IMG/VR virus record: IMGVR_UViG_3300018023_000112
Span: 1 to 20,035 of that record
Direction: 5' to 3' (one strand)
Length of the DNA: 20,035 bases
Origin: a virus
In this document: one piece after another, positions 737 through 19,341 of the stretch
Position numbering within the stretch: position 1 is the stretch's first letter
Layout: each line of letters opens with the position of its first letter
Translations under genes and position numbers: made by a program
Notes under the pieces: model-generated
Database searches by the model: none
Told to the model about the DNA's origin: nothing
The model's input: only the letters and a program-made list of their open reading frames with translations

Positions 737-1981
737 TTACTTTGCGAGGACGGCTTTCTTGCCTGTGAAATCCTCGCAGCGTTTGACAATCACATCGACG
801 TAATGCGGGTCAATCTCGCAACCGAAACACCGCCGATTCAGCTTCTCGCAGGCGATTAGCGTAGAGCCGGAGCCGAGGAATAAATCGAGGACGTTGTTAT
901 TGACGAGCGACGAATTGAGCAGGGCGTTTTCTATTAAGGCAATGGGCTTCATTGTGGGATGCTTATCACATTTTAATTCTTTATCAATATCCCATACGCT
1001 GTTTTTGAATTCCCCCTTGCCATAAAACACATGTTTTTTCTTCCACGTGTATAAAATTGGCTCGTGCTTGTATTCATAATCCAAACGGCCTAAAGAAAAA
1101 TTCTGGCGATTTTTGTTCCATATTAGAACGTGGCGGGTCGGCAGTCCGCTCATCATCATCATCATCATCATCATCATCAGGCCAAGTTCGCCGTTTTGTG
1201 GCGCGGTTACATAATAACTACAATGGTCTTTTCCATGTTCATAAGCCAGCGTAAACGCTTTTTGCAATAAGGTGAATAGTTTATCTTTTCCCAAAACATC
1301 GTTGGCTATGTCCTTCAAATTCCTTCCAGAAGGCTGGAAGGAATTTAGGAAGCGATTCTTTTCTCCATAATCTACTCCATAGGGCGGGTCAGTGAATACC
1401 ATATCCGCCTTTTGTCCGTCCATCAGCCGCGCGACGTCCTCCGGCTTCGTAGAATCTCCACAAAGTAAGCGATGATTACCGAGGAGCCACAAATCACCTG
1501 CTTTGCTTATCGGCTTCGGCACTTCTGGTATCGCGTCTTCGTCAGTCAATCCTGCCTGATTCGGCATAAACTCCGAAAGCAGGGCGTCAATTTCATCCTG
1601 CGGGAAGCCCAGCGTCGTAACGTCAATCTCCTGCGATTGCAGGTCCGCTATAATCTTAGCCAAAGCCGCGTCATCCCACGTCGCAAGCTCGTTCAATTTG
1701 TTGTCGGCCAGCATATAGGCGTCGGCCTGCTTCTCGGTCATATCAAGGAAAACGACGGGCACTTCTTTTATGCCCAGCTTCTTTGCCGCCTTAAAACGCG
1801 TGTGGCCTGCGATAATAACCTTGTTGGCCTTGCGGACTAATATGGGGTTTGTAAAATCGAATTGCTCTATGCTGCCGGAAATCTTATCGACTGCCTCATC
1901 GTTCTTGCGGGGATTCTTCGGATTGAGCTTTATTGAGCCAATAGCAACATATTCGATTTTGAGCTTGTTTTTCTCTGCCAT
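737..1981 (-). CDS. ParB-like domain fused to a DNA methyltransferase (beta class, N6-A or N4-C)
   Basis: A 414-residue two-domain protein. Residues 8-135 match the ParB/sulfiredoxin-like fold: NPRK at 23-26 and the GHTR version of the GHRR box at 59-62. Residues 160-410 form an S-adenosylmethionine-dependent amino-methyltransferase: catalytic DPPY at 198-201, HPTMKP at 341-346 and the AdoMet-binding FLGSGST at 368-374. DPPY before FxGxG is the beta-class order. Fusions of this kind are common in phages and often sit beside terminase genes, where they may protect DNA from host restriction. Residues 269-277 are nine consecutive methionines from a perfect ATG repeat, in the region between the two motifs where the target-recognition segment lies. 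An intrinsic terminator separates it from the upstream cluster. No clear SD precedes ATG 1981. Confidence 0.92.
   Translation of the reverse strand: MAEKNKLKIEYVAIGSIKLNPKNPRKNDEAVDKISGSIEQFDFTNPILVRKANKVIIAGHTRFKAAKKLGIKEVPVVFLDMTEKQADAYMLADNKLNELATWDDAALAKIIADLQSQEIDVTTLGFPQDEIDALLSEFMPNQAGLTDEDAIPEVPKPISKAGDLWLLGNHRLLCGDSTKPEDVARLMDGQKADMVFTDPPYGVDYGEKNRFLNSFQPSGRNLKDIANDVLGKDKLFTLLQKAFTLAYEHGKDHCSYYVTAPQNGELGLMMMMMMMMMSGLPTRHVLIWNKNRQNFSLGRLDYEYKHEPILYTWKKKHVFYGKGEFKNSVWDIDKELKCDKHPTMKPIALIENALLNSSLVNNNVLDLFLGSGSTLIACEKLNRRCFGCEIDPHYVDVIVKRCEDFTGKKAVLAK
1151..1177. repeat. Perfect (CAT)9 trinucleotide repeat
   Basis: Nine uninterrupted CAT units (ATG on the coding strand) inside the methyltransferase gene encode Met 269-277. 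Unit changes would alter length without shifting the frame. Confidence 0.95.
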
Positions 1982-2112
1982 ATACCGCTTATCGGCAAAA
2001 CCGCGTAAAATGCCCCACGTTGTTTACCCCCCTGCTACGGGACGGGTTAGCGGTTAACCCCCCTAAATTTCGCCGCATAGATTGAATTTGGCCTATTCTG
2101 GCGCATATCAGA
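1982..2112. promoter_or_regulatory. Leader of the methyltransferase gene with two C6 boxes and a dyad
   Basis: Gene-free stretch between the terminator and the methyltransferase. It holds two near-identical boxes, TTTACCCCCCT (2023-2033) and TTAACCCCCCT (2054-2064), 31 bases apart. A dyad, GGGTTA (2044-2049) with TAACCC (2055-2060), overlaps the second box. No convincing -35/-10 pair was found. The layout suits a regulator binding two sites on one helix face, but that is inference. Confidence 0.35.
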
Positions 2113-2146
2113 CAATAAAAAAGCCGCCTGTGCACCAGACGGCTCT
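2113..2146 (-). terminator. Intrinsic terminator after the exported-protein cluster
   Basis: On the minus strand the sequence reads AGCCGTCTG, loop GTGCA, CAGGCGGCT, then a T run. The arms are 2122-2130 and 2136-2144, and the T run is 2122-2117. The 9-bp stem is complete with one G-U pair only as minus-strand RNA, which fixes the direction. It ends the transcript carrying the gene at 2185-2973. Confidence 0.88.
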
Positions 2147-2184
2147 TTCGTATTAACGCCTTTTTAAGGAGGAGGGCTATATCG

Positions 2185-9608: not shown

Positions 9609-9668
9609 TCACCTTTCAAAGTGCCGGGGATTTACGCCTAATTCTTTTGGCCGCGTCCGGTTACTCAT
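9609..9668 (-). CDS. Possible 19-residue peptide upstream of ninG
   Basis: ATG 9668 opens a 19-codon frame, MSNRTRPKELGVNPRHFER, whose TGA overlaps the in-frame GTG of ninG. GGGG lies upstream. It may be a coupling peptide or the remnant of a larger gene. Too short to be sure. Confidence 0.25.
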   Translation of the reverse strand: MSNRTRPKELGVNPRHFER

Positions 9669-9706
9669 TTTCGGCTACCCCGGCATAAACTCAAATTCCA
9701 AAGAAC

Positions 9707-10115: not shown

Positions 10116-11546
10116 CTAAAAATTACAATTTCGGTTAAGGGGACACATCGCCCCGCTATTCGCAAATTCACCCTGTTCTATCGCGGACGCGCCCGGGTGC
10201 GCTTTAAAGCTGAACTGTTCCGGCAGCCATACAAGCGGCACGTCGCCGGTTGCTCCCTGCCTGTTCTTCGCAATGATGCAGACTGCTTCCCCGTCCTTAT
10301 CTTCATTGCCTCGCCGGTAATAATCGTCCCGATGCAGGAACATCACAACATCAGCGTCCTGTTCAATAGAACCGGATTCACGCAGGTCAGACAATATCGG
10401 TCTGTGGTCCGCCCGCATTTCACACGCCCTGTTTAACTGGCACAGGACGACTATCGGCATATCGAGCCGCTTTGCCAGCCCTTTAATCGTCGCCATAATT
10501 TTTGTAATCTCCTGCTGGCGATTTTCGTTTCGGTCCTTGTGGTCGGCGAACATAAGTTGGAGGTAATCAATAAAGATGCAGGAAACCTTGTGTTGATATT
10601 TCAATTTTGTTATTTTGGCCGTCAACGAATTCGGCGTCAGCATCGGGCTGCCGTCAATCCACAAGTGTAATTTTGCGATTTCATTACCAACCTCGAATAT
10701 GGCATCCCAATTTTCCTTCGTAAGATTGCCGTCGCCCATCCGATACAAACTCACTCTGGACCTGCTGGCGATTATACGTTCAACCAGCGATTGCGGGGAC
10801 ATCTCCAAAGAATAAATAGCCACGCCCGCACCTTCGCCGGCGATATTCAAAACGAGGTCTAACATAAATGACGACTTGCCCATTGAGGGCCGGGCTGCGA
10901 TGATTATTGCCTGGCCCCCTTTCAGCCCGCGGAGTTTCACATCAAGCGCGGAAAATCCCGTCTGTATCCCAAGCTTGCGGTCCTGGAGCATACCGATTGT
11001 TGATATTACAATCTCGTTTATATGATTTAGCGACGCCGGTTTGTCATCGAGCGCCAATTGGAATGCCGCCGATTCGAAAACCTGCCTCTTTTCCTCGACG
11101 TCGAGCATCACACTGCGGACCTCCTGCGACACGGTATCGATTGCTGATAGTATTTTTCTCTCCTGTGCTTTCAGCTTCACACGCTTGGCATAATATACAG
11201 CATTGACGGCGGTGGGCAGTGATGAAACAATTTTAATAAAAAAGGACGCCAAGTCATCATCCCATTTTCCCTTATCCGTTAACCGGCCCTGAACCACAAG
11301 AACGCCGATTACTGTTCCGCTGTTATGCATCTCGGCCCATAAAGAAATTATTGTCTCATAAAGCAGGGCGCACTGAAGGTCCACAAAATCCGCTGCCGAT
11401 AGAATATCCATCACCTCCGGGATAACCTCGTTGTCAAGAACCATGCTGCCGACAACGGCCCTCTCTGCTTCAGCCGCTTGTGGCAACAGGTCCGGCTGCC
11501 CCGAAGTGCTCTGCTGCCTCTGTGCGTTCTCTTTTTTGTTTTGCAT
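10116..11546 (-). CDS. dnaB: Replicative DNA helicase, DnaB family
   Basis: A 476-residue helicase that unwinds DNA ahead of the phage fork. The N-terminal primase-interacting domain (about 20-165) begins with AEAERAVVGSMVLDNEVIPE. The RecA-like motor shows Walker A ARPSMGKSS (218-226, Ser where Thr is usual), the SLEMSPQSLVERIIAS motif (about 246-261), Walker B IFIDYLQ (324-330) and QLNRACEMRADHRP (370-383). RESGSIEQDADVVMFLHR (389-406) and KNRQGATG near the end complete the set. Length matches bacterial DnaB. ATG 11546 has GGAGA upstream and lies 77 bases inside the upstream replication gene. Confidence 0.95.
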   Translation of the reverse strand: MQNKKENAQRQQSTSGQPDLLPQAAEAERAVVGSMVLDNEVIPEVMDILSAADFVDLQCALLYETIISLWAEMHNSGTVIGVLVVQGRLTDKGKWDDDLASFFIKIVSSLPTAVNAVYYAKRVKLKAQERKILSAIDTVSQEVRSVMLDVEEKRQVFESAAFQLALDDKPASLNHINEIVISTIGMLQDRKLGIQTGFSALDVKLRGLKGGQAIIIAARPSMGKSSFMLDLVLNIAGEGAGVAIYSLEMSPQSLVERIIASRSRVSLYRMGDGNLTKENWDAIFEVGNEIAKLHLWIDGSPMLTPNSLTAKITKLKYQHKVSCIFIDYLQLMFADHKDRNENRQQEITKIMATIKGLAKRLDMPIVVLCQLNRACEMRADHRPILSDLRESGSIEQDADVVMFLHRDDYYRRGNEDKDGEAVCIIAKNRQGATGDVPLVWLPEQFSFKAHPGASAIEQGEFANSGAMCPLNRNCNF

Positions 11547-12423
11547 CCTGCGTCTCCTTTTCCTGTAATTTCAAGGCCCGTTCCTGTGCTGTCAACCCAT
11601 CCACACCTCGTTTTGCCGGCGGGGGCTTTCTGTTTTTATCCTGCTCCTCAAAATTCGACTTGCGATAATTCTCGATGTTGAATTGGCCGGGCAGGAATTT
11701 CTTAAAATGCTCCCGCTGTAACCAGTGGAACAGTGAATGTTTTTTGAACGCCTGAGAATCTGGCAGGGCGCAGGCCTCGGCGTAATAATCAATCGCCGTC
11801 AATAGCTCCTCTTGTGGTAAGGTTAATTTTGTCGTTGCGAATTGTCGCTGGACGGCCAACTGCTCCGGTATCGACTCGCATTTTATGAGGCACTTCTTAT
11901 TCCAGTGGTTTATTAGCTTTTCAGTAAAATCAGCGATTTTGTTGTTGTTGCCGTTTACTTCAACTTCACCTTCAACTTCACTCTTAATTAACTTAACTTT
12001 ACTTAAATTAAAGCGCCCATTGGATTCCATTGGATTCCAACTTTTTCCAATTAACTCAAGCCCTTGTTGATACTGGGGATATGCACTTACTCGCCCCCGG
12101 TCACTCTTAAATGTCTGAAATATGTCTCCACCCACTGTTTTTTCAAAGTTTTGGTACTGCTGATAAGTCTTTTCCTCTACTTTGTATAAAATTATCAACC
12201 CGATGCTGGCCTCTTCGAGCAGTGCCGCTTTGATGTCGTTCTTGGAAATTTTTGGATTCCGTGGGAATACTTCGGATTTTATGTCTTCCGGGTTGCCGGT
12301 GTAGCAACCATAATCATCAAGCCACGGTATCGTCCATGTCCATATAATTTGGCCGTTTTTTGAGAGCTTATTTACCTTCTCTGATTGTGATATTCTGCGG
12401 GATAGCATCCGTCTTTGTGCCAT
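11470..12423 (-). CDS. Phage replisome-organizer-like replication initiation protein
   Basis: A 317-residue protein. The N-terminal 1-110 fits the phage replisome-organizer/winged-helix pattern: RRISQSEKVNKLS, TIPWLDDYGCYTGNPEDIKS (31-50), IGLIILYKVEEKTYQQYQNF. The middle (about 160-250) has NHWNKKCLIKCESIPEQ and a LFHWLQREHFKKFLPGQFN segment seen in such proteins. The C terminus is a charged, Glu/Lys/Gln-rich tail. Members bind the origin and load DnaB, which fits the helicase gene overlapping its 3' end by 77 bases. The CsrA-like gene ends two bases upstream. Confidence 0.82.
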   Translation of the reverse strand: MAQRRMLSRRISQSEKVNKLSKNGQIIWTWTIPWLDDYGCYTGNPEDIKSEVFPRNPKISKNDIKAALLEEASIGLIILYKVEEKTYQQYQNFEKTVGGDIFQTFKSDRGRVSAYPQYQQGLELIGKSWNPMESNGRFNLSKVKLIKSEVEGEVEVNGNNNKIADFTEKLINHWNKKCLIKCESIPEQLAVQRQFATTKLTLPQEELLTAIDYYAEACALPDSQAFKKHSLFHWLQREHFKKFLPGQFNIENYRKSNFEEQDKNRKPPPAKRGVDGLTAQERALKLQEKETQDAKQKRERTEAAEHFGAAGPVATSG

Positions 12424-12425
12424 TT

Positions 12426-12620
12426 TTAGCGTCCCTGCCTTCCCTGATTAAACTTGGTCCCCGCCTTCCCTCTTTGAATATCAAACGAGCGGGGGGCCTC
12501 AAAGAATATCTTTAATCGTTCCTTCCCGTAGCACTCCTGTTTACGGAAATTCATTGTGATTTTTTCGCCGCGGTGTGTTATTGAGATTTCGTCGTATTCG
12601 TCAAAAGTCAACGCCAGCAT
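12426..12620 (-). CDS. CsrA-like RNA-binding regulator
   Basis: A 64-residue protein. It lines up with CsrA over its length: MLALT (1-5) matches MLxLT, then EISI, GEKITMNF where CsrA has its second strands, and KIFFEAPRSFDIQR (37-50) matching the xIGxxAPxxVxVHR core. Arg50 is in the place of the RNA-contacting Arg44 of E. coli CsrA. The strand between residues 22 and 36 is slightly longer than usual, and the tail is basic. CsrA dimers bind GGA motifs in leaders and block ribosome access. Its own leader has GGA in the SD (ACGGAGG) and in the terminator stem. It heads the replication operon. Divergent, so the family call is likely, not certain. Confidence 0.6.
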   Translation of the reverse strand: MLALTFDEYDEISITHRGEKITMNFRKQECYGKERLKIFFEAPRSFDIQRGKAGTKFNQGRQGR

Positions 12621-12732
12621 AAACGCCTCCGTGCGTGAAAAAGATGAGTCCTCGTCCTGGATAAGGTGAAAGCGGAGAACCGCTACGAGGACCCATAAAG
12701 TTCAAACGTGATTTTGCCTTCAACTTATCCAT
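12601..12732 (-). other. Possible leaderless leader peptide of the replication operon
   Basis: ATG 12732 lies 8 bases after the -10 box and opens 43 codons (MDKLKAKSRLNF...), passing through the terminator stem and the SD of the CsrA-like gene, and stopping 15-17 bases inside that gene. Translation would melt the terminator. No SD is present. A frame this long is not rare by chance (about 1 in 8). Confidence 0.25.
12638..12696 (-). terminator. Structured terminator in the leader of the CsrA-like gene
   Basis: As minus-strand RNA, 12696-12685 (AUGGGUCCUCGU) pairs with 12655-12644 (ACGAGGACUCAU), 12 bp including one G-U. It encloses a hairpin, AGCGG-UUCU-CCGCU (12684-12671), and a 15-base bulge. 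C and five U follow. Only about 7 bases separate the U run from the SD GGAGG (12630-12626), so no promoter fits between and downstream genes need readthrough. GGA occurs twice in the stem. Confidence 0.75.
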
Positions 12733-12740
12733 TACTCAGC

Positions 12741-12769
12741 ATTATCGGCTTTCATCTGTGAAAAGTCAA
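12741..12769 (-). promoter_or_regulatory. Sigma70-like promoter of the replication operon
   Basis: TTGACT (12769-12764), a 17-base spacer and GATAAT (12746-12741), with an A/T-rich stretch upstream like an UP element. Start of transcription expected near 12734. Lies in the gap between the small membrane protein gene and the CsrA-like gene. Confidence 0.75.
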
Positions 12770-12787: not shown

Positions 12788-13009
12788 TTACGGGCGGCGG
12801 TAAGCCACCCAAAGCGTATAAAACGACATAACCTTGAATATCCATTTATACGTCGAGTCGCAACGACAAAACCAAATCCTAAATCGAGGAGTCCCAGTAT
12901 CTTTCCAGAATTTAATCTCTAAATTTTGCGCCCACAGTATCGCCGCTCTAATAACAAAGCAGGCACAGGCGATACCCAGGGCGCCAAGGATTAGCTTTAA
13001 GAAATACAT
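12788..13009 (-). CDS. Small membrane protein (73 aa)
   Basis: A 73-residue protein with one N-terminal membrane helix (about 4-26, LKLILGALGIACACFVIRAA), then a Trp/Phe-rich, basic region (FKVMSFYTLWVAYRRP). GGAGAG precedes the ATG. It sits between the recombination and replication modules, just upstream of the replication promoter. No family recognised; membrane anchoring is what the sequence shows. Confidence 0.65.
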   Translation of the reverse strand: MYFLKLILGALGIACACFVIRAAILWAQNLEIKFWKDTGTPRFRIWFCRCDSTYKWIFKVMSFYTLWVAYRRP

Positions 13010-13072: not shown

Positions 13073-14152
13073 CTACGGCTCCTCGACGAGAATATAACCA
13101 CAATCACCACACTCAGCCTCGCCCGACTTGTTTATACTAAATGCGTTTTTGTCCGCCAAGTTGATTTTCTTTTTGCAATTCGGGCAGTACGTTTTCGGCT
13201 TCTCGGGCGCTGCTGTCTTTACTGGCTCGGTCTTTGCCGGCTGATTCTTCGGGGCTTCGGTCTTGCCCTTCAAATCATCTTTGAGGCCCGCGACGCCGCC
13301 CTTTTTTGCATCGGCTTTTTTCTCGCTCTCGATAGGCGGGAAAGCTTCGTCGATTGTTATATCGCCGCTCTCGATAGCCGTTTTCAGCCCGGCCATTTGC
13401 AGCAGGTGGTCAATGCCCATATCCGCATAACCTTTGACATTCAGGACCGCGAACATTCGCTCGTTCGATACCTCGATGCCTTTGAGCCACGCCTGTAGCT
13501 CTGCCTTGCGTTTATCCATCGTCTGCACGTTGCCGTCGCCCATTATGACCTTCTTTGCCAAGTCCTCTAAAGGCTTACAAATACCGACCGGCACAATCTT
13601 GAATATCGCATCGCGGAACGCTTTGGCCGCCGCCGCCTTTGCGACAACAACCCGCATACGCTCAGACATCGGAGTCCCGTCGCGTTTAACGGTTGATTCG
13701 ACACACTCCGCACTGAAGCCGATATTCTTTTCCAGGTCCATAACAAAGCCAACCGCTTTGACGTGCCGGGGCTTCATTTCGGTTATGATCGTCTTGGCCC
13801 GGATATTACCGTAACAGGACGCGACAATCTCGGCCATGCGGATACTCTTGCCCTCGGCCACCTTACCGTCCCCGACAGGCCGCGAGTAAATACAGCTTTT
13901 GGCCGTCCCCTCGTCCATCATAATCATTTCGCTGGCCTCTTTTTTGAACTGAGCCAGACTCCGCGGGAATTGCCTTGCGGTCTTAATCTGCATCATAATT
14001 TCAGATTCTTCCATCACCGCCAAAGCGTTCTGCTCGACCGCCTCCGTCTCGACGTGTTCGATTTCGTTTACCGGCTCACCTGTTTGCTCTACTGGTGAGG
14101 GCGGCTGTTGTGGGCCTGCCGCTCGCTGCCCCTGTCCTTTTTTGAATGCCAT
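13073..14152 (-). CDS. Putative phage single-strand annealing (recombination) protein with zinc-ribbon tail
   Basis: A 359-residue protein. After a disordered N terminus (1-50), the core reads YSRPVGDGKVAEGKSIRMAE (89-108), YGNIRAKT, VGFVMDLEKN (about 134-143), AAAAKAFRDAIFKIVP (173-188) and a helical region to about 270. This pattern recurs in phage proteins encoded beside YqaJ exonucleases and is probably the annealing partner, as RecT or Beta are in other phages. A Lys/Pro-rich linker (about 285-320) leads to a zinc ribbon, C323-x2-C326 and C348-x2-C351. AAGGAGAG precedes the ATG. The annealing function is inferred from context. Confidence 0.65.
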   Translation of the reverse strand: MAFKKGQGQRAAGPQQPPSPVEQTGEPVNEIEHVETEAVEQNALAVMEESEIMMQIKTARQFPRSLAQFKKEASEMIMMDEGTAKSCIYSRPVGDGKVAEGKSIRMAEIVASCYGNIRAKTIITEMKPRHVKAVGFVMDLEKNIGFSAECVESTVKRDGTPMSERMRVVVAKAAAAKAFRDAIFKIVPVGICKPLEDLAKKVIMGDGNVQTMDKRKAELQAWLKGIEVSNERMFAVLNVKGYADMGIDHLLQMAGLKTAIESGDITIDEAFPPIESEKKADAKKGGVAGLKDDLKGKTEAPKNQPAKTEPVKTAAPEKPKTYCPNCKKKINLADKNAFSINKSGEAECGDCGYILVEEP

Positions 14153-14172: not shown

Positions 14173-15120
14173 TTATTTTTTCTTATCCGTTTTCAGATAC
14201 AGTTTGTGACAATAGCTCGTATCCGACAATTTGTGATTACAGGCCGGGCAATGCGTTTCTTTGCGGCAGACCTGCTGCGGGTAAGTGACCAACCCCTGCG
14301 AATATCTCGCCGCCTCGTAATTACCCAGATACGTCAAGAGCTTTGCCTGTGCCGCTTCTTTCGTAGCGTCCGCCTCTTTTGATTTCGCCTTCGCCTCCTC
14401 ATAAGCAACGACTAATGGGTCAATGTCGGTAAATATCTCGTCACCGTCCGGCCCATCTATCTGTGCCGGCTTAATCGATTTCGGCTCGCGGGATATGCGT
14501 TTGATTACGTCAAGTGAGGCAATTGAATCGGCAGGGGGAATATCTTTTTTGACACACTGCCAGAAGTCATACGCCTTTTCCATAAGCATCGCCGCAACGT
14601 CGGGGTCAAGCTCCGCGTGATAAAGCTGATAGCCCCGCCCGCCAAGTATCGCCGCTATGTGACAGGATAACGTCACGGTGCAAATCATTTGAACCGACGC
14701 CTGGACTAAAATATCTTTCGGAACATCGTCCGTCCCCGGCTCACCCCAGCCCTGCTCCATCGGCCTAAATATGCCGCGACACTTCGCTTCGACACATAGG
14801 CCGGTCTCTTTTACCCGACCGTCAAGCGTTGCCGCTAATACGCCGTCGCGCGGGTCCACGATGAAAAACGGATTACCCTTTTCGTCCCGCGTCTCAATCG
14901 GGCCGAGGTCATTAGCGGCAAGCTCGTTTAAGATATACGGCTCTAAGGCACTGCCAATATCTGCCGCCTCGTTCTCCGTATCCTCCGGCTTGACTTTGCC
15001 TGTTTTGAGCAACCAGACATCCATAGCCGTCATCCAGGGCGACAAGCCGAGGATTGCGGGCATATCAGACGCGCCGATGTGTTTCATTCTTTGTGCGTGT
15101 TGTACCATAGTTAATGCCAT
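14173..15120 (-). CDS. YqaJ-type viral recombinase / 5'-3' exonuclease
   Basis: A 315-residue PD-(D/E)XK-type exonuclease from ATG 15120, chosen for AGGAGAG eight bases upstream. YqaJ features: HIGASDMPAILGLSPW (14-29), DVWLLKTGK (34-42), GSALEP (57-61, Glu60), AATLDGRV (96-103, Asp100), CVEAKC (109-114, Glu111-x-Lys113) and ILVQASVQM (137-145). It would chew one strand from DNA ends to feed the annealing protein encoded 21 bases downstream, as lambda Exo does. The C-terminal HCPACNHKL with nearby Cys residues forms an extra zinc knuckle. First gene after a promoter and terminator-like leader. Confidence 0.88.
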   Translation of the reverse strand: MALTMVQHAQRMKHIGASDMPAILGLSPWMTAMDVWLLKTGKVKPEDTENEAADIGSALEPYILNELAANDLGPIETRDEKGNPFFIVDPRDGVLAATLDGRVKETGLCVEAKCRGIFRPMEQGWGEPGTDDVPKDILVQASVQMICTVTLSCHIAAILGGRGYQLYHAELDPDVAAMLMEKAYDFWQCVKKDIPPADSIASLDVIKRISREPKSIKPAQIDGPDGDEIFTDIDPLVVAYEEAKAKSKEADATKEAAQAKLLTYLGNYEAARYSQGLVTYPQQVCRKETHCPACNHKLSDTSYCHKLYLKTDKKK

Positions 15121-15242
15121 TTTATCTCTCCTAAAAAAGTAAGAGGCCACCAGCCGCTTGCGACGGTAAGCATCGAGAGGGGATGCACTGGGGGCCTCTT
15201 AGTCCTAAGTTTCGGATTATGATTTATTACCATCGCAAGCAT
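15111..15242 (-). other. Possible leaderless leader peptide of the recombination operon
   Basis: ATG 15242 lies 8 bases after the -10 box and opens 43 codons (MLAMVINHNPKLRTKR...), crossing the terminator, with tandem Trp codons (GWWPL) in its 3' arm, and stopping inside the first codons of the exonuclease gene. Same length and layout as the frame at 12601-12732. No SD. Confidence 0.25.
15133..15201 (-). terminator. Structured terminator/attenuator-like leader of the exonuclease gene
   Basis: As minus-strand RNA, 15201-15193 (UAAGAGGCC) plus CCAG (15191-15188) pair with CUGG (15153-15150) plus GGCCUCUUA (15148-15140), 13 bp with one mismatch. Inside are GCATC/GATGC (15186-15182 with 15174-15170) and a weaker hairpin, giving a three-way-junction shape. 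C and six U follow at 15139-15133, and the SD AGGAG begins at the very next base. Genes downstream therefore need readthrough. Confidence 0.7.
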
Positions 15243-15249
15243 AGTTACA

Positions 15250-15277
15250 ATCCTATAATCCCCGGCCAAAATGTCAA
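15250..15277 (-). promoter_or_regulatory. Promoter of the recombination operon with overlapping dyad
   Basis: TTGACA (15277-15272, perfect), a 16-base spacer and TAGGAT (15255-15250). Transcription should start near 15243. The -35 box is one half of the dyad TGTCAA-N9-TTGACA (15272-15292), a possible operator for the adjacent ribbon-helix-helix protein. Confidence 0.6.
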
Positions 15278-15280
15278 GCT

Positions 15281-15472
15281 TTATTTTGACAATTTCGCGG
15301 TTAATTTTGCTCTGACGATTTGCCTGCAACCCAGCAAAAGGGCCTCTCGCAAAAAGTCGTTTTTGTGCTTATATTCGACGCGGGAGAATCGGGACATCGC
15401 GTCTTCGATTTCCAGATACTCGCTGCCCTTAACCCGGACGCCAAGCTGTTTATTAATTTTCTCTTTTGGCAT
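15281..15472 (-). CDS. Ribbon-helix-helix (CopG/Arc-like) DNA-binding protein
   Basis: A 63-residue protein with a ribbon-helix-helix layout: strand QLGVRV (9-14), helix GSEYLEIEDAMSRFS (16-30), turn with basic HK, and helix NDFLREALLLGCRQIV (38-53). AAGGG precedes the ATG. Such proteins are usually dimeric repressors. Its 3' end overlaps the dyad at the recombination promoter, so it may control that operon. A regulatory role is inferred. Confidence 0.6.
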   Translation of the reverse strand: MPKEKINKQLGVRVKGSEYLEIEDAMSRFSRVEYKHKNDFLREALLLGCRQIVRAKLTAKLSK

Positions 15473-17227: not shown

Positions 17228-17716
17228 TTAGATTTTCTTCACGATACCATATTCTACCGTTCCACCCTTTACGTATTGGCACTCGATAACTTTATCATCG
17301 TCTGCGACTTTCCGCCAAGTGCATATACCTGCGAAAAGCTGAAATGAAAAACTGATAATTTTTTTGCATTTAATCGACAAGCCCGCTTCGATACCCCTGC
17401 CCGCTTTGATACCCCAGCCCGCTTTGATACCGTCGCCCGCTTTGATACCCTCGCCCGCTTCGATACCGTCGCCCACTTCGATACCCCTGCCCGCTTTGAT
17501 ACCCTCGCCCGCTTCGATACCCTCGCCCACTTCGATACCCTCGCCCACTTCGATACTCCTGCCCGCTTCGATACCCCTGCCCGCTTTGATACCCAATTCG
17601 ACGATAAGCCAAGCGTCCAAATCGATAATCAATGATTCCTTTGTGCTGATTCCCCCCGATAGGTAATAATTTCCATTCTCAAATCTCAGCCCTTTGTAAT
17701 TTTTATCAATTTTCAT
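17228..17716 (-). CDS. Hexapeptide-repeat beta-solenoid-like protein
   Basis: A 162-residue protein. A unique N terminus (MKIDKNYKGLRFENGNYYLS...) leads to twelve six-residue repeats of the form G-I-E/K-A/V-G-x (about 41-112). A C-terminal cap follows, with SFQLFAGICTWRK and a Val-rich end. Ile every sixth residue and Gly at fixed positions suit a left-handed beta-helix or related solenoid. I recall similar GIKAG-type proteins in phages and gut bacteria, with no known function. The repeat is also exact 18-bp DNA units. AAGGAGAG precedes the ATG. A binding or scaffolding role is a guess. Confidence 0.75.
   Translation of the reverse strand: MKIDKNYKGLRFENGNYYLSGGISTKESLIIDLDAWLIVELGIKAGRGIEAGRSIEVGEGIEVGEGIEAGEGIKAGRGIEVGDGIEAGEGIKAGDGIKAGWGIKAGRGIEAGLSIKCKKIISFSFQLFAGICTWRKVADDDKVIECQYVKGGTVEYGIVKKI
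17381..17596. repeat. Twelve tandem 18-bp units
   Basis: Twelve consecutive 18-base units, consensus GCCCGCTTYGATACCCYT, differing at a few third-codon or Glu/Lys, Ala/Val sites. They encode the hexapeptide repeats. The pattern implies duplication by slippage or unequal recombination. Units are adjacent with no spacers, so this is not a CRISPR array. Confidence 0.95.
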
Positions 17717-18884: not shown

Positions 18885-18968
18885 TTAATCCTTTATCCAC
18901 TTTACGAATCGCCAAACAAATACTGCTCCGGCCAACGCAGCCACAAATACCCACGCATCTTCAGACAT
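18885..18968 (-). CDS. Tiny single-span membrane protein (27 aa)
   Basis: A 27-residue protein (MSEDAWVFVAALAGAVFVWR, then FVKWIKD): acidic start, one hydrophobic helix, basic end, consistent with one membrane span. The SD is a perfect AGGAGG six bases upstream, which argues for this start. The frame is open upstream to ATG 19052 and would add a short basic segment with a C-x2-C knuckle, so a 55-residue product is a weaker alternative. Confidence 0.6.
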   Translation of the reverse strand: MSEDAWVFVAALAGAVFVWRFVKWIKD

Positions 18969-19341
18969 TGTATGCCTCCTAAAAAAAGTATAATTGCAAT
19001 GCTGGCAAATAGGTTGCCTCGGCGCCTTCCACCTACGGTTCGGGCATACCATAAAAATATATGTCCTGCCATTGCCAGCATACCACACCCTTGCAAAAGC
19101 GACTCCGTAGAGCCGCCTTTAGAGGAGGGTGATGAAAACTATATAAGGGGCCAGCCAACTGGTCAAAGCCAGCCCCTGTGAAAGGATTTCGCGGGATGGA
19201 AAGCCCGCCGCGCCGATGAATGAATCCAGCTCGGAGCGCACACCGTGTCAATATATTTTTATGAGAAAGAGCGTATGATTGCAGGCGCGCTGATTAACAA
19301 GACGCGCCTGACTCCTCTGCGGAACATACCGCAAAGCTCGA
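18969..19341. promoter_or_regulatory. Gene-free region dense in inverted repeats
   Basis: No convincing gene in 373 bases. Perfect inverted repeats include ATGCTGGCAA/TTGCCAGCAT (18999-19008, 19072-19081), AGGGGC/GCCCCT (19146-19151, 19172-19177), GCGGG/CCCGC (19191-19195, 19204-19208), CAGGCGCG/CGCGCCTG (19282-19289, 19303-19310) and TGCGG/CCGCA (19318-19322, 19329-19333). A T7 run on the minus strand (18987-18981) touches the SD of the 27-residue gene. Candidates: structured leader RNA, small RNA, operator cluster or origin. Confidence 0.55.
19223..19251 (-). promoter_or_regulatory. Possible promoter within the inverted-repeat region
   Basis: A perfect TTGACA (19251-19246) with an A/T-rich tract just upstream (AAAAATATA). 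A weak TGGATT (19228-19223) follows after 17 bases. The -10 is poor, so this is tentative. Confidence 0.35.

Follow-up and report, generated by a model that had tools for sequence, protein, structure and literature searches.

A candidate two-state transcription attenuator before the recombination and replication operons of an uncultivated phage

How is an operon read when an apparently complete intrinsic terminator stands between its promoter and its first gene? Tailed phages are usually thought to time their early genes by repressors and antitermination proteins. We addressed this question in an uncultivated phage represented by IMG/VR virus record IMGVR_UViG_3300018023_000112, positions 1 to 20,035 (the window, 20,035 nt in all; this 20,035-base record is probably a fragment). 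The first gene behind the terminator encodes a YqaJ exonuclease, as a preliminary description had proposed: its product matches PF09588 (E 2e-16) and is assigned by PHROG to the RecE-like exonucleases. The second gene had been called an annealing gene. Its product matches phrog_3657, a family of unknown function that adjoins YqaJ-like genes in other phages, and an annealing role is suggested by that position. A terminator at 13052-13027 closes the gene pair. CxxC-type zinc-ribbon-like motifs end both proteins (14173-14230 and 13080-13200, minus strand) and are absent from five aligned relatives of YqaJ and three of the phrog_3657 protein.

Two interleaved helices upstream of the YqaJ gene

The leader, here called L1, occupies the minus-strand interval from a short ORF, which ends at 15281, to the YqaJ start at 15120. 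Its parts and the genes that follow are:

15272-15277, minus strand: L1 promoter, -35 box TTGACA
15250-15255, minus strand: L1 promoter, -10 box TAGGAT, after a 16-nt spacer
15111-15242, minus strand: putative leader ORF of 43 codons, opening with the element's first base; it overlaps the YqaJ start
15227-15240, minus strand: arm A, GCTTGCGATGGTAA, at the extreme 5' end of the transcript
15188-15201, minus strand: arm B, TAAGAGGCCCCCAG, the 5' arm of the terminator
15170-15186, minus strand: shared hairpin GCATC-CCCTCTC-GATGC, compatible with either state
15156-15169, minus strand: arm A', TTACCGTCGCAAGC, making 14 pairs with A, one of them G-U
15155-15154, minus strand: GG linker preceding B'
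15140-15153, minus strand: arm B', CTGGTGGCCTCTTA, 13 of 14 positions paired with B
15133-15139, minus strand: terminator tract C-TTTTTT
15126-15132, minus strand: Shine-Dalgarno AGGAGAG of the YqaJ gene, directly after the U run
14173-15120, minus strand: YqaJ/RecE-like exonuclease, first gene after L1
13073-14152, minus strand: phrog_3657 protein in the annealing-protein position

The preliminary description had listed a TTGACA -35 box with a plausible -10, about 40 nt, a 13-pair stem, and C-U6 followed by AGGAGAG and the YqaJ ATG, all of which proved correct on the minus strand, coordinates included (15139-15133, 15132-15126 and 15120 for the last three). The -10 box matches at four of six bases and, judging from the spacing, transcription is expected to start near 15242, some 40 nt before the terminator stem. 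Its further claim that no promoter fits after the terminator also stands, since the gap from the U run to the ATG measures only 12 nt. A perfect inverted repeat, TGTCAA-N8-TTGACA (15272-15291, minus strand), overlaps the -35 box and is a possible operator; just before it lies a 63-aa ORF (15281-15472) of no known family.

The terminator stem, TAAGAGGCCCCCAG/CTGGTGGCCTCTTA, is paired at 13 of 14 positions and encloses two small hairpins. Folded alone, the terminator part reaches -29.3 kcal/mol (z = -4.7), and none of 200 shuffles was equally stable, which places the folded RNA far beyond chance. A repeat search revealed a second 14-nt inverted repeat in L1 (A, 15240-15227, with A', 15169-15156), interleaved with B/B'. 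The order along the RNA is thus A, B, small hairpin, A', GG, B' and C-U6, with four separate arms, and A/A' and B/B' are mutually exclusive as nested structures, an exclusion derived from nested folding. This interleaved pair scores 65, compared with at most 41 across 400 dinucleotide shuffles of the leader.

The two helices are nearly equal in duplex energy (A -22.7, B -21.1 kcal/mol). The minimum free energy structure of full-length L1 is the A/A' hairpin (-35.7) and not the terminator, the nested ensemble comprises about 95% A/A' and 5% terminator, and forcing the terminator in the 126-nt transcript costs 3.6 kcal/mol. The three-way junction proposed earlier is only one of two alternative states, and it is not the one predicted to dominate in L1. 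Because the predicted resting state of L1 is read-through, the terminator may rarely act. Folds of the growing chain have A/A' complete before B' exists, both in L1 and in the second leader described below (L2); L1 then stays mostly in A as the chain grows, and L2 switches to B once B' is made. Predicted access to the Shine-Dalgarno is nearly the same in either state of both leaders, which favours control of termination over masking of the ribosome site.

A second leader and a weaker relative in the same window

All intergenic stretches were read, and the same arm order was found before the gene at 12426-12620. This second leader, L2, spans 12732-12636:

12741-12769, minus strand: L2 promoter, TTGACT-17-GATAAT
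12716-12731, minus strand: arm A, TGGATAAGTTGAAGGC
12685-12696, minus strand: arm B, ATGGGTCCTCGT
12671-12684, minus strand: hairpin AGCGG-TTCT-CCGCT between B and A'
12658-12673, minus strand: arm A', GCTTTCACCTTATCCA
12657-12656, minus strand: GG linker after A'
12644-12655, minus strand: arm B', ACGAGGACTCAT, 12 of 12 positions paired with B
12638-12643, minus strand: terminator tract C-TTTTT
12426-12620, minus strand: CsrA-like 64-aa protein, first gene after L2, in the replication operon
10116-12423, minus strand: replication initiator-like protein and DnaB helicase, the remainder of the L2 operon

Helix energies are again close in L2 (A -18.9 vs B -18.7 kcal/mol), and its nested ensemble is about 99% B. 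With L1 at about 95% A, this points to one switch with different set points.

A descriptor scan of the window for interleaved stems A-B-A'-B' with a short linker and a T run returned exactly two strong cases, L1 (65.5) and L2 (60), the next scoring 37. Each follows a sigma-70-like promoter and precedes an operon. With the T-run condition removed, L1 (65) and L2 (60) were still at the top and six shuffles of the window gave 50.5 or less; the highest scores among dinucleotide shuffles of the leaders were 41 (L1) and 40 (L2). A third interleaved candidate, spotted by eye before NinG (9613-9706), was not outstanding in the scan and was rejected. Both strands of the 20 kb were also searched with a covariance model for which L1, in its A/A' structure, was the sole input. 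Its best non-self match was L2, at full length (E 0.0037), followed on the coding strand by 19081-18982 (L3, see below; E 0.57). With the B/B' structure, the L1 model listed L2 weakly (E 3.1).

MAFFT was unable to align L1 with L2, and the covariance model aligned them. Both sides have changed with pairing kept in 7 of the 14 A pairs and in 9 of the 11 comparable B pairs, with one mismatch per helix. In the model-fitted alignment 97% of the cells are paired in register, against 28-48% after a slide of one to three columns. The A arms were aligned by the model fit and the B arms by hand, so the A-pair counts lean toward A/A', to which the alignment was fitted. The covariation rests on two paralogous leaders, since no homologue was found outside the 20-kb fragment. 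Two sequences are few; nonetheless, this many compensatory changes in both helices would be hard to explain unless both were selected as RNA. A loop motif, AAATCA-N-GAAMYTT, is common to L1 and L2 and may be due to chance, as it fails to predict structure elsewhere.

The third leader, L3, is a weaker relative of L1 and heads a run of small genes that includes one for an SbcC-like ATPase:

19138-19166, minus strand: L3 promoter, TTGACC-17-TATAGT
18967-19081, minus strand: L3
19081-19072 with 19008-18999, minus strand: A with A', 10 bp
19052-19043 with 18976-18967, minus strand: B with B', B' covering the Shine-Dalgarno and start codon
18987-18981, minus strand: T7 tract

L3 aligns with L1 with a global sequence score of 80.5 (shuffle maximum 53.5) and likeness at both ends, part of the likeness in the tail being an ordinary T run and Shine-Dalgarno. 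It shares sequence with L1 and keeps A/A', but is without the terminator arrangement. As its B' lies over the ribosome site, L3 appears to be a relative with a different logic. An 11-bp hairpin, AAAGGCGGCTC-TACG-GAGTCGCTTTT (19120-19095, minus strand), lies between the L3 promoter and L3, and is possibly a further tandem terminator.

Elsewhere in the window, a clear terminator, AGCCGTCTG-GTGCA-CAGGCGGCTTTTTT (about 2100-2160, minus strand, between 2185 and 1981), is absent from the list of a consensus scan, which therefore misses some real-looking terminators. A ParB-N/DNA methylase protein (737-1981, minus strand) carries nine consecutive methionines encoded by an ATG repeat, perhaps a slippage-prone tract, and the protein at 17228-17716 (minus strand) consists of short in-register repeats of the GIEAG/GIEVG type.

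Relatives and known RNA families

The preliminary description proposed a search for such leaders upstream of YqaJ in other phages. The outcome was negative: in the closest relatives of YqaJ that were inspected, the genes abut and no leader is present at all, and the element thus belongs to the operon heads of this phage rather than to YqaJ. Searches of viral contigs with single proteins gave no useful close relative; one candidate (L009) looks like a virus of archaea. Alignments of YqaJ and of phrog_3657 supplied 80 + 80 viral and 57 genome loci. The element is absent from these loci by the descriptor, and from 175 of them by the covariance model. Over the 1.6 Mb of phage and genome loci, the descriptor scan gave a best score of 54.5 and 28 matches, compared with a best of 48 and 26 matches in shuffles. 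Likewise, the covariance model found no element in 50 whole viral records, nor in 149 genomes of the phylum to which a Phycisphaerales genome carrying YqaJ and phrog_3657 belongs; these covariance-model negatives are weak, as the model has no positive control outside the window. In one Phycisphaerales locus (L221), YqaJ has upstream of it a repetitive coding stretch that differs from the GIEAG/GIEVG one of the window.

At the sequence level, blastn of the leader DNA against phages and plasmids gave chance-level pieces only, and pattern scans for the stems, the loop motif and the head and tail of L1/L3 detected no true relative. Within the window, no 12-mer of L1 or L2 recurs except for the shared Shine-Dalgarno stretch. 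DNA-level explanations of the leaders (cruciform, replication origin or transposon end) were judged unlikely because of the U runs, the orientation at operon heads and the G-U pairs, which are present in both A helices and suit RNA better than DNA.

No Rfam family matches the leaders at its gathering score, in line with the earlier remark that the fold is not a known riboswitch. Among known systems, the P4 CI and P1/P7 c4 immunity RNAs are antisense RNAs that act through Rho-dependent termination. They resemble the present leaders in combining, on an early phage transcript, RNA pairing between interleaved complementary segments with premature termination, but pairing here lies within one leader and termination looks intrinsic. 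The bglG/LicT-type antiterminators (RF03530) likewise place a hairpin upstream of a terminator, and theirs prevents termination when bound by protein. In a search with RF03530, L3 alone matched, below threshold (17.3 bits, the gathering score being 80), and no BglG-like protein was seen. The rplJL leader of Bacillus subtilis carries an exclusive antiterminator and an intrinsic terminator and serves autogenous attenuation (PMC4538822). L1 is similar in its promoter, its exclusive antiterminator and terminator with the gene behind, and possibly in having a leader ORF and an RNA-binding protein that acts autogenously. Unlike attenuators of the rplJL type, the helix arms here interleave (A-B-A'-B') without overlap, and they occur in a phage and at more than one operon. 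The nearest phage precedent is the isrK leader of prophage Gifsy-1, with its own terminator, partial read-through and alternative structures; IsrK acts in trans on orf45 translation (PMC4825925), whereas no trans target or similar sequence was seen in the window and both helices here precede the U run.

A proposed switch and what may set it

The suggestion of an attenuator-like leader with conditional termination is strengthened by the competing antiterminator helix and by L2, which conserves both helices and the U run. Before the YqaJ and CsrA-like genes lie a promoter and an intrinsic-terminator hairpin with its U run, together with a competing upstream structure exclusive with the terminator; the keeping of both structures by compensatory change refers to L1 versus L2 only. 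The promoter, the two predicted interleaved helices, the U run, their same order in two leaders and the compensatory changes can all be read from the DNA itself; from these we infer that transcription is terminated, that this depends on conditions and what may control it. The best explanation, to which we give a probability of roughly 0.6, is that L1 is a bistable transcription attenuator and that L2 does the same for the CsrA-like/replication operon, possibly with one signal for both.

According to this model, RNA polymerase would start near 15242 and make A, B, the small hairpin and then A'. A would pair with A' before B' is made, and this antiterminator hairpin would trap B in its loop. As long as A/A' holds, B' would be without a partner, the polymerase would pass the U run and the YqaJ operon would be read. 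Should a ribosome, a protein or some other factor occupy A or open A/A', B/B' would pair and transcription would stop at U6, just before the Shine-Dalgarno. L2 would act as the same switch for the CsrA-like/replication operon, with a set point nearer to termination; a single phage signal could thus govern both operons together. The leading guesses for this signal are the phage CsrA-like protein and translation of the leader.

The first of these would name the effector of the attenuator and is tentative. The CsrA-like protein would bind GGA motifs in the leaders and tip A/A' against B/B', or load on the Shine-Dalgarno, and would thereby feed back on the replication operon and co-control the recombination operon. 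Its gene is the first behind L2, and autogenous attenuation by an RNA-binding operon product has its precedent in rplJL. All three leaders contain AGGAC (chance about 0.0015 for three 105-nt stretches on the same strand, for a motif chosen after being seen), which in L1 sits in CUUA-GGAC-UAAG, a stretch that begins slightly 5' of arm B and runs into it. On the other hand, the GGA motifs are placed differently in each of the three leaders, and GGA is in any case part of Shine-Dalgarno sequences. The family assignment is also below the Pfam cut-off: the match to PF02599 is nearly full length (profile 1-50 of 53; E 5e-4) but scores 20.3 bits against a curated 27, for which reason we call the protein CsrA-like only. 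An hhalign comparison gave E 6e-4 and a probability of 30. A structure search returned no meaningful fold match, and is itself meaningless because the single-sequence model is poor (pLDDT 63).

Ribosome-dependent attenuation seems unlikely, although several features recall it. Here an ORF from the first base of the element would be translated, the initiating ribosome covering A and a following one keeping B or B' open, so that coupling would set read-through. Each of the three elements has an ATG where arm A starts, with frames open for 43, 43 and 59 codons, through the U run; the other two frames are interrupted in L1 and L2, and the joint chance of this openness, at about 0.006, makes it only moderately unlikely. 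The L1 and L3 ORFs both begin MLAM, with synonymous changes, but the leader peptides share little else. In B. subtilis, rplJL is expressed more strongly when its leader peptide is translated (PMC4538822), and in mgtCBR attenuation depends on short leader ORFs (PMC3641672). Against this, the ATG of L1 and L2 would lie at the 5' end or within a few bases of it, which leaves no space for a Shine-Dalgarno, and a run of regulatory codons is missing from the classical place, L1 having its Trp-Trp in B'.

Less probable still is a small-RNA gene with a leaky terminator, whose terminated RNA of about 105 nt would be stable and trans-acting, as IsrK is in relation to its own read-through transcript. This would fit an own promoter, an RNA structured from its first bases and a terminator followed by mRNA, and a short terminated RNA alongside a read-through mRNA, with alternative structures, is already known from IsrK of Gifsy-1 (PMC4825925). 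The A-B-A'-B' order is that of an H-type pseudoknot, which could use both helices; by geometric estimate, however, a 2-nt linker, an A helix of 14-16 bp and a hairpin in the second loop would hardly allow both full helices at once, unless the middle hairpin opens. No trans target was found in the window (no 12-nt match), the record being a fragment. Finally, a constitutive or strong terminator insulating the operon from upstream transcription, with A/A' as a by-product, is very improbable: a plain terminator without a competing helix does abut a Shine-Dalgarno elsewhere in the phage (13052-13027), but a terminator that separates a gene from its own promoter has no insulating effect, and an interleaved A/A' conserved in L2 with compensatory changes would be left unexplained. 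That plain terminator (minus strand) is GC-rich, ends in T5 and directly abuts GGAGAGATAAAATG of the next gene (12788-13009), which therefore seems reachable by read-through only.

Returning to the bistable attenuator, its interleaved order and its repetition across phage operons would be new with respect to known attenuators. The widest form of this reading is doubtful: a new class of phage cis-regulatory RNA, in which an interleaved (pseudoknot-ordered) bistable attenuator stands at the head of each early operon, its sequence rewritten with both helices kept, and is tuned by the CsrA-like protein of the phage, which would thereby coordinate the replication and recombination genes. L1 and L2 would represent a compact switch whose helices are in balance, and perhaps an instance of phage genes controlled by a CsrA-like protein that the phage itself encodes. 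Covariation evidence is available without any relative, from the two divergent copies that a single genome carries. It is probably through an undescribed RNA switch that this phage meters its own early genes and, if this is true, the same two-state RNA before the recombination and replication operons would constitute a small RNA-based regulon.
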